Below, in pieces: positions 37,774-40,704 of a stretch of 42,072 bases of DNA (the first letter of the stretch is position 1; every line of letters starts with the position of its first letter). The notes beneath the pieces were generated by a model. The model made no database searches and was not told where the DNA came from. It saw only the letters and a list, made by a program, of their open reading frames with translations. A program made the translations under genes and the position numbers. Source of the stretch: Anaerolineae bacterium (GTDB taxonomy: Bacteria; Chloroflexota; Anaerolineae; Aggregatilineales; Phototrophicaceae); assembly GCA_022843745.1 (NCBI GenBank), contig JALHNB010000038.1, positions 1 to 42,072 of the forward strand. The letters are read 5' to 3'.

Positions 37774-37887
37774 TCATCTCGGCAAAATATGACCATCATC
37801 GAAGGGCGCACAGTGGCCAAAGGAAAGCCTGGGACGATGCGCCAGATTGTAACCGAACCATCGCCCAACATATCCTATCCCGCCTTT

Positions 37888-37947
37888 TCTCCCCTCTCCA
37901 TGAGCTTGCGAAATGGGTGACCGAAGGAAAGGTCGGGGGAGGGGTCA
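37888..37947. repeat. CCCCTCCCC-type repeat, reversed, just before the SBP gene
   Basis: It reads TCTCCCCTCTCCATGAGCTTG, CGAAAT, and ends GGTCGGGGGAGGGGTC. It ends 16 bp before the ATG of the solute-binding protein gene, so it occupies the place where a leader or promoter would be. Confidence 0.68.
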
Positions 37948-37963
37948 AAATAAGGTATATACC

Positions 37964-40612
37964 ATGAAACGCTACACCCCCTTCCTGCTCCTTCTCGCCG
38001 TTCTCGCCCTGTCCATCCTCCCGGCTCTCCCCGCCGATGCACAGGACGGCATCATTCTGCAAGTCACCGCGCCGTTTTTCGCCGAGGACATCCTGCAACC
38101 CGTCATTGATGAATATTAGGCAGCGCACCCCGGCATCACCGTCCAGATGGTGCTGAATCAGGGTTTTGGCGCACAGGTTCAGAACGACGACGATCCCGAA
38201 GTCTATCAGGCAAATCTGGCGACCTACTTTAGTTCGGCGGACATTCTCGTCGTCAGCAATTCCGTCCTCACGCCGGAAGCCACGCGCGGCGGCTATGTCC
38301 TCGACCTCATGCCCCTGACGAGCAGCGATGTCGATTTCGACTCCTCGGCCTTTCACCAGACGATGCTCTCGGCCTTCCAGTGGGATAACGGCCAATGGGC
38401 GCTGCCAATTTCCGCCAGTTTCGTCGTCGTCTCGTATATTCCAGAGGCTTTTGACAACGCCGGAATCGCCTACCCCACCGAGTCGTGGACGCTGGACGAT
38501 CTGGAAAATGCCGCCCGCACACTGACTCAGAAAAACGCTGACGGCACAATCGCCCTCCCCGGCATGATTGTCCAGGGCAACAACGCCTCGCTCCCGCCGC
38601 TGTTTATGAGCCTGACCGGAAGCGGATTCGCCACCGACGCGACTTTCCCCGGCAGCCCTGATTTCAGCAATCCGCAGCTTGCCGCCGATCTCGATAACTG
38701 GTTTGCGTTCGTCGCTGAAGGACTGATGGAAGTGCCTGACGACGTGAACAACAACCAGATTCCGCTGATTATCGGCAACCCGCAGTTTGGCGGCGGTGGC
38801 GGTGGATTTGGCGGCGGCAATCAGGATGCGCCTGTCCGCGCGACAGCTTTGCTCCCCGGCGGCGGCGCTGGCTTGAGCGTCAATGGGTATGCCATCAGTC
38901 GCGGCACGCTCTACCCGCAGGAGTCTTACGATTTTCTCAAATTTCTCGTTAATCACCCGAACGCCGTAACCGCGAACCTCAGCACCACGCCGGCTGTGAT
39001 CGGCCTCGAAGCGGGCGGATTTGGCGGCCCAGGTGGTGGCCCCGGTGGCCCCGGCGGCGGCGGATTTGTCCCCGAAGCGCTGCAACCCCTGCTGGATACG
39101 GCTATCGAACGCGGAATTTCTGACACGCGCTTTTCGACAGGCATCACCGCTGCCCTCAACCTCATGACGGATGGGGCGCTGGATGCCCGTGCTGCGCTCG
39201 ATGAAATTCAAAACACATTTCTGACACGCCTGGCCGTAGCCGATACCCACGCCGCGACCCGCATCAGTGTTGTCGCGCCTACAATTGCGCCTGTCCTTGC
39301 TCCCGGCGAAGTCGCGCTCGATTTCGCGATTCTTGGCGGCGGTGGCCCCGGTGGTGGCGGTGGTGGTGGATTTGGAGCTATACAACAGTGGCAGGGCATC
39401 GCCGATCAGTTCGTCGCGGATGACGCGGAAGTCGGCATTATCAATTTCGACACCGAAAACGCCAACGACCTCGCAACGGTGACGGAAAATTACGACTGCT
39501 TCTATTCCAGCACCAACCTCATCCCCGATGCCGACCTCAGCCAACTCCTGAGTTTTGACCCGCTGGTTTCGGTTGATCCAGCCTTCGATCCCGACGACTT
39601 TATCGCCGGAGTCTTCACGCAGGTGAGCGCCAATAACCAGATGTACGCCTACCCGCTGCAAATTTCGCCGCTTGTCCTGCGCTTTAATGCCGATATTTTC
39701 ACGCAGGCCGGAGTCCCACTCCCCCAGAGCAGCTGGACGGTCAGCGAATTGCAGGACGCGCTCGGTCAATTGAAATTCGTCCTCACCGATGACCAGTTCC
39801 CGCTGGAATTGAATGCTTCCGGTCAAACGGCGCTGCTGATGCTCATCGCGGCCTATGGCGGCATCCCGTTTGATACGCGCACCAGCCCGCCAACCGTGAG
39901 CTTCACCGACCCGGCGACGGAAGCCGCTTTGCAGCAAATTCTCGACCTGCTGGCAAACGGCGAGTTGACCTTCTCCGGCGGCGGTTTTGGCCCCGGCGGT
40001 GGTCAGGCTGACGACACCGTTCCGCTGTATTCGAATGTCATCAATGCCTTCAGCTTTGGCGGTGGCGGCCCCGGCGGTGGTGGGAATAATCAATCCGAAA
40101 ATTCCGACGGCATTGTCCCATTCCCGCGTGGCAATCAATATAACGCCGTCGCCTTCAACCTCGGCACGGCCTATATCAGCGTAAATGCGGAAAATCCCGA
40201 AGCCTGCTATCGTTTCATAAGCACCGTTTCGCAATCTACTGAGCTTTTCGACTCGATGCCCGCGCGGTATTCGCAGATCGACAATCCCGATCTCGCGCAG
40301 GCTCAGGGCGATGATACGGTGGCGTTCTATCGCGACCTGGCAAATCTGATCGACCAGCCGACGACGCTTGTTTTCCCGAACAATATCAACGCCGGAAATT
40401 TTGGCATGACCAATTGGCTGTTTGACGTGTTTGATCGCTATGTCGCGGGTGAAGTTGTTGACCTGAACGCGGATTTGGCGGATGCCGAGCAAGCCACCCG
40501 CGCCTATATCGACTGCGTGGCGGCGCTCCCGCCCTTCAACCCGGGCGGCGACACCGACCCGCAGGACTTCTTCGCGCAGATCCAGGCGTGCCAAGCCTCG
40601 GCGACGGCGTAA
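37964..40612 (+). CDS. Secreted tandem solute-binding protein with Gly-rich loops, split by a TAG
   Basis: Read through, this is about 882 residues: a signal peptide (1-26, ADAQ-D) and two solute-binding (family 1-type) domains in tandem. Domain 1 covers TAPFFAEDILQPVI to about 420; domain 2 then starts VALDFAILGGGG. Each domain has very glycine-rich loops (GGGGGGFGGG, GGPGGGPGGPGGGG, GGGGPGGGG), some at matching positions, e.g. before the NGYAISRG and LGTAYISV strands. Codon 52 is TAG (38117-38119) in EY-stop-AAHPG, where relatives have a sense codon before AHPG; the frame is otherwise intact. Without read-through, only a 51-residue secreted stub or a signal-less protein could be made. No ABC permease genes are nearby. 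It has no lipobox cysteine. Confidence 0.8.
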
Positions 40613-40626
40613 TATCACACGCTTTT

Positions 40627-40651
40627 GTAGGGGCGAGGGGCTGCTTCGCCC
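40627..40651 (+). terminator. GTAGGGG palindrome after the SBP gene
   Basis: GTAGGGGCGA and TTCGCCC arms with a short CTTTC after them, 14 bp past the stop. It resembles the 36228 hairpin but with a poor T-run, so termination is only possible. Confidence 0.45.
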
Positions 40652-40704
40652 TTTCAAAGGTTTCATCTTCTTCCGAATTACACAATCTGTTGTTTAGATC
40701 GCAT

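Follow-up and report, generated by a model that had tools for sequence, protein, structure and literature searches.

In-frame stop codons are widespread and mostly short-lived in bacteria, according to passages of the survey by Belinky et al. (2021, PMC7918605), which also place carbohydrate transport and metabolism among the categories in which such stops are most abundant. Here we describe a stop of this kind in a gene for a tandem solute-binding protein from an Anaerolineae bacterium (Chloroflexota; assembly GCA_022843745.1). The gene lies on the forward strand of contig JALHNB010000038.1, of which we analysed positions 1 to 42,072 (42,072 nucleotides, the window); the host genome comprises 7.96 Mb in 117 contigs. 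A single TAG splits the gene close to its 5′ end, and we consider it probable that this TAG arose recently as a nonsense allele in a solute-binding gene that is both redundant and orphan, making the gene a pseudogene with one lesion.

One gene with one in-frame TAG

The frame at 37964-40612 starts with an ATG at 37964, runs through 51 sense codons to 38116 and meets TAG at 38117-38119. Beyond the TAG it continues for 830 sense codons (38120-40609), with no second internal stop, to TAA at 40610-40612. The peptide around the stop reads IDEY-stop-AAHPG. These boundaries and the flanking peptide agree to the base with those of the initial annotation of the window. The parts of the gene are:

37964-38116, + strand: 5′ fragment of 51 codons, with a signal-peptide-like N-terminus, the first strand and most of helix 1
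38117-38119, + strand: in-frame TAG, codon 52, at a position where 47 of 60 homologous frames carry Glu and none a stop
38120-40612, + strand: remainder of the tandem solute-binding protein
38147-38149, + strand: earliest in-frame ATG beyond the stop, with no purine-rich ribosome site seen in the preceding 20 bases
38051-39247, + strand: putative first solute-binding domain, split by the TAG and covering about residues 30-428 (best PF01547 stretch 43-333, model and PDB matches)
39311-40522, + strand: putative second solute-binding domain, about residues 450-853 (model; frames of about 450 residues match within 446-708 of the 830-residue part)
38792-38821, 39020-39064, 39341-39376, 39980-40009 and 40049-40102: glycine-rich stretches, loops of the model

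We compared codon usage around the TAG with that around all stops open for at least 45 codons on both sides, of which the window has 116, counting the TAG at 38117, and the first 400 kb of contig C1 has 911. The 45 codons before the TAG scored 0.455 and the 45 after it 0.41, against a median of 0.233 for 45-codon coding stretches. No other stop in the comparison set had both flanks that high, the next pairs being 0.332/0.282 in C1 and 0.385/0.259 in the window. Since the flanking scores are uniquely high and homologous frames are open at this place, the interruption is more than chance; and, as no other two-sided-open stop has so strong a coding signature on both sides, this is one gene, interrupted once. 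The score of the whole frame was 0.319, compared with 0.224-0.274 in four paralogues.

Homologues identify what the TAG replaces. A first alignment held 33 homologues, and a wider set held 60 distinct frames, drawn from these 33 and from 80 named loci (frames of named loci with E above 1e-20 or spanning 500 or fewer query residues were left out, and identical frames were removed throughout). The 80 were the best of 347 loci from an alignment scan of the named genomes, in which an earlier scan with the single protein as query had found no homologue. Glu occupies the site in 30 of the 33 homologues. In the wider set it does so in 47 frames, followed by Gln (5), Ser (2) and Tyr, Ile, Lys, Asn, Val and His (one each), and the preceding residue is Phe in 59 frames and Tyr in one. 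None of the 60 has a stop at the corresponding site, in agreement with the initial proposal that the TAG stands in place of a sense codon; TAG is one base away from one of the two Glu codons. All 60 frames are open over 50 codons or more ahead of the site, and therefore no homologue needs to start after it, an arrangement named beforehand as the one that would speak against a single gene.

The closest homologue found is 47% identical. Family matches at E ≤ 1e-5 occurred in 125 of 151 genomes (host genome included), many of them weak and to single-domain-sized frames. By title, the first 40 loci of named relatives were Chloroflexi/Anaerolineae or members of these in 39 cases and Bacteroidetes in one. 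The only internal TAG among the matches listed, in homologue G005:C37, lies beside a run of unknown residues; because it adjoins an assembly gap and falls elsewhere in the protein, it is not a second case.

With the frame read through and the TAG taken as E, the protein matched PF01547 (SBP_bac_1) in two stretches at 66.1 bits, over a gathering score of 26, and 33 of 34 aligned members, the read-through frame included, match this family. Taken by itself, the 830-residue part did not match PF01547 at E up to 1, which weighs against membership; we suspect the effect of a composition filter on the glycine-rich loops. An AlphaFold2 model built from 34 sequences (predicted local distance difference test, pLDDT, 83.9; predicted TM-score, pTM, 0.71) has two solute-binding domains. 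The best Foldseek match in the PDB was a cycloalternan-binding protein (E 8.1e-18, TM-score 0.65 on the target), and the further matches were mostly sugar-binding proteins and MBP-named fusions. In addition, single-domain-sized frames in the host genome match either half of the protein. The tandem identity given in the initial annotation thus holds up against family, paralogues and fold, and the predicted product of the intact gene is exported and consists of two fused family-1 solute-binding domains.

Judged by eye, residues 1 to about 27 of the 5′ fragment resemble a signal peptide. The modelled N-terminal elements are a helix at 5-17, a strand at 30-37 and a helix at 38-54; the TAG site falls within the last of these, predicted to be the first helix of domain 1, directly after the first strand (mean pLDDT 95 for residues 51-60). 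The glycine-rich segments, at residues 277-286, 353-367, 460-471, 673-682 and 696-713, lie in loops of low model confidence.

Decoding of the TAG and fate of the gene

We looked for signs that this genome reads TAG as sense. Release factor RF1 (TIGR00019, prfA) is present as an open frame at 513.2 bits, over a cut-off of 423.25, and TAG terminates 44 of 180 frames of at least 300 codons in the first 400 kb of C1. The suppressor transfer RNA (tRNA) with anticodon CUA that the initial annotation had suggested seeking was not among 46 tRNA matches to RF00005, a set that is incomplete (150 of 244 candidates scored; Ile-GAT and Ala-TGC not seen). The best match to the pyrrolysine synthetase PylS reached 25.2 bits against a cut-off of 178.15, so PylS is absent by that cut-off; in control genomes the profile gave matches in 13 of 14, one of them over the cut-off. 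For the 121 bases starting at 38110, the predicted fold is no better than those of shuffled sequences (z 0.35), and no Rfam family exceeded its gathering score in the window. A literature search on UAG readthrough in Chloroflexota returned, among its first 10 of 496 matches, only general work on readthrough and stop codons. Among the tRNA matches, a second tRNA-Tyr (GTA) at G000:C35:6829-6900 had the lowest score, with 73 bases as against 84 in the one on C2.

Genome-wide recoding was also considered and rejected. The 911 two-sided-open stops of C1 comprise 453 TGA, 301 TAA and 157 TAG, and TAG made up 21 of 79, 11 of 35 and 3 of 13 coding-like interruptions at three score thresholds. This share lies a little above the 17% background and near the 24% of terminators that are TAG, as in-frame neighbouring genes would give, and does not indicate recoding. 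Recoding of TAG is thus unsupported, and ordinary termination is expected, because RF1 is present, TAG serves as a terminator, no CUA anticodon occurs among the 46 tRNA matches, PylS stays below its cut-off, the RNA is unremarkable and the stop is not shared.

The reading that we consider probable is as follows. A single base change would have made a TAG of codon 52, which in this family mostly encodes Glu. RF1 would end translation there, leaving a peptide of 51 residues, roughly half of which is signal sequence. No functional binding protein would then be made, leaving a recent null allele, and the loss may be tolerated since four other full-length paralogues exist and this copy lacks the permease gene that often follows in relatives. 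This picture includes three inferences: a real base, a lost product and a redundancy that permits the loss. In the model, the stop would remove needed parts, lying in helix 1 of domain 1 and severing the export signal from both domains. Redundancy and the orphan position are consistent with loss, without proving it.

The lesion is young, because there is no second stop and codon bias is still high. With 180 of 7929 possible substitutions yielding a stop, and with indels taken to be 5-20% as frequent as substitutions, a further lesion should soon have followed; as there is none, neutral divergence is limited to at most about 0.7-2% (95%), a figure that varies with the indel rate chosen. The gene was thus in good shape until very recently or, should the base be an error, is so still.

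Several points weigh against a recent null allele. The stop is known from one assembly, and no genome of the same genus was among the matches listed; a single lesion with full codon bias is also expected of a base error or of an allele in use; and the age bound depends on assumed rates. The main rival, which we hold to be unlikely though a serious candidate, is that the T at 38117 stems from an error in the consensus or from a minority strain whose base entered the assembly, and that the gene is intact in the organism. One isolated base, no other stop and full codon bias are what such an error would leave, and 79 of the 80 named relatives' loci are titled metagenome-assembled genomes, in which strain mixtures occur. 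However, the site has no homopolymer, the ABC_tran stretches listed (151 matches in all) contain no internal stop among the matches listed, and the other 14 genomic matches of this protein contain none either. The assembly is thus not error-ridden, although one wrong base among 8 million could still occur. In bacterial genomes, single-lesion pseudogenes are common and nonsense consensus errors rare, and for this reason we clearly, if not overwhelmingly, favour a real allele over a base error.

Readthrough of the TAG at some rate, by a near-cognate tRNA, a suppressor or programmed recoding, would yield a little full-length protein. The frame past the stop is indeed intact and strongly biased, TAG is slightly commoner among the coding-like interruptions of C1 (21/79) than among its two-sided-open stops (157/911), and in-frame stops that keep a signal of selection are reported as widespread in bacteria in passages of Belinky et al. 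(2021, PMC7918605). The same passages describe most such stops as short-lived. With the stop shared by none of the 60 homologous frames, RF1 present, no CTA anticodon among the 46 tRNA matches, PylS far under its cut-off, a downstream fold like that of shuffles and a TAG share in C1 interruptions near that of terminators (44/180), we regard readthrough as quite improbable. More improbable still would be a leaky, conditionally suppressed switch that keeps the protein low, with the downstream frame still under selection. Of the three causes put forward in the initial annotation, a fresh nonsense mutation is thus the one that we favour, read-through is without support, and a base error stays a candidate.

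Translation could also restart at the ATG at 38147 (codon 62), giving a shortened protein of 821 residues that is useful, for example in the cytosol. This ATG lies in frame 27 bases past the TAG and, with a GTG at 38150, is the sole in-frame ATG, GTG or TTG within 58 codons past the stop. It has no purine-rich site before it, however, all 60 homologous frames stay open over 50 codons or more ahead of the TAG site, and the product would lack the signal peptide, the modelled strand 30-37 and helix 38-54 and part of the strand at 58-65. Lacking signal peptide, first strand and first helix, a restarted product should not, on the model, be a working exported protein, and we give a useful one very little chance.

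An antisense gene was considered and rejected: the minus strand is open for 956 codons at 37796-40666, with no Pfam match at E up to 0.01. This openness follows from the absence of TTA, CTA and TCA among the 882 codons of the sense gene; none of 54 C1 frames of at least 500 codons is without these three. The homologue L024 has an antisense-open run of 898 codons.

Paralogues, permease partner and surroundings

The four other full-length paralogues in the host genome are all open frames of 34-40% identity, two of them side by side on contig C23 and one each on C1 and C50. In a tree of 34 rows, the interrupted gene groups with copies from genomes G027 and G009 (Shimodaira-Hasegawa-like approximate likelihood ratio test, SH-aLRT, 100, by a quick method). 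In both genomes the orthologue is immediately followed by an FtsX/MacB-type permease gene, and genes for a response regulator and a histidine kinase lie on the opposite strand. The permease of G009 exceeded the curated cut-offs of the MacB_PCD and FtsX profiles, whereas that of G027 scored below them. This permease was found in 22 of 40 loci searched (of the 80 named), 19 times within 450 bases after the matched gene, twice after a second solute-binding gene and once elsewhere; several of the 18 permease-negative loci end at contig ends.

A search of the host genome for the permease found no homologue on the window's contig, all three matches being on other contigs: C23 (50%, beside the two paralogues), C32 and C11 (29% each). 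At C23:48043-59025, two tandem solute-binding genes, the permease and two ATP-binding cassette (ABC) ATPase matches follow in succession on one strand. To our knowledge, it is unusual for a binding protein to be paired with an FtsX-type permease. Two term searches of the literature on this transporter layout, which required at least 4 of 5 terms (one of them unsuited) and at least 3 of 4 terms, found no paper that contained enough of them.

The neighbours of the interrupted gene, one on either side, are a YceI-like gene and a HEAT-repeat gene on the opposite strand. A repeat precedes its start codon:

37889-37945, + strand: dispersed repeat, about 57 bases long, whose end lies 18 bases short of the ATG; copies are up to 100% identical

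The repeat had 42 matches in the genome including itself (40 of 116 candidates scored), and of 20 other copies fetched, 6 had nearly full coverage at 97-100% identity. Its type may be, as a guess, that of repetitive extragenic palindromes or miniature inverted-repeat transposable elements (REP/MITE).

Comparison with known systems

Taken alone, the gene is of little importance. It cleanly illustrates how a full-length gene can be hidden by a fresh nonsense allele from a simple listing of open reading frames, which gives an 821-residue frame from the ATG at 38147 without a signal peptide. It is also a warning to check homologues, RF1 and tRNAs before single stops are called recoding. If readthrough were true, the gene would allow a test of the claim that many in-frame stops in bacteria do not mark pseudogenes.

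The protein resembles SBP_bac_1 (PF01547, MalE-like family 1) in sequence and modelled fold, and the PDB entries that match it best are oligosaccharide-binding components of ABC importers. It departs from the norm of that family in that two domains are fused in a chain of about 880 residues with glycine-rich loops, and in the FtsX/MacB-type permease that neighbours the gene in 22 of the 40 relatives' loci examined. Like the single-lesion pseudogenes in passages of Belinky et al. (2021, PMC7918605), the gene has one in-frame stop in an otherwise intact frame; unlike the stops surveyed there, as far as those passages describe them, this one is carried by one genome only. The finding is ordinary: one-stop alleles are widely reported, and we see no departure from them here.
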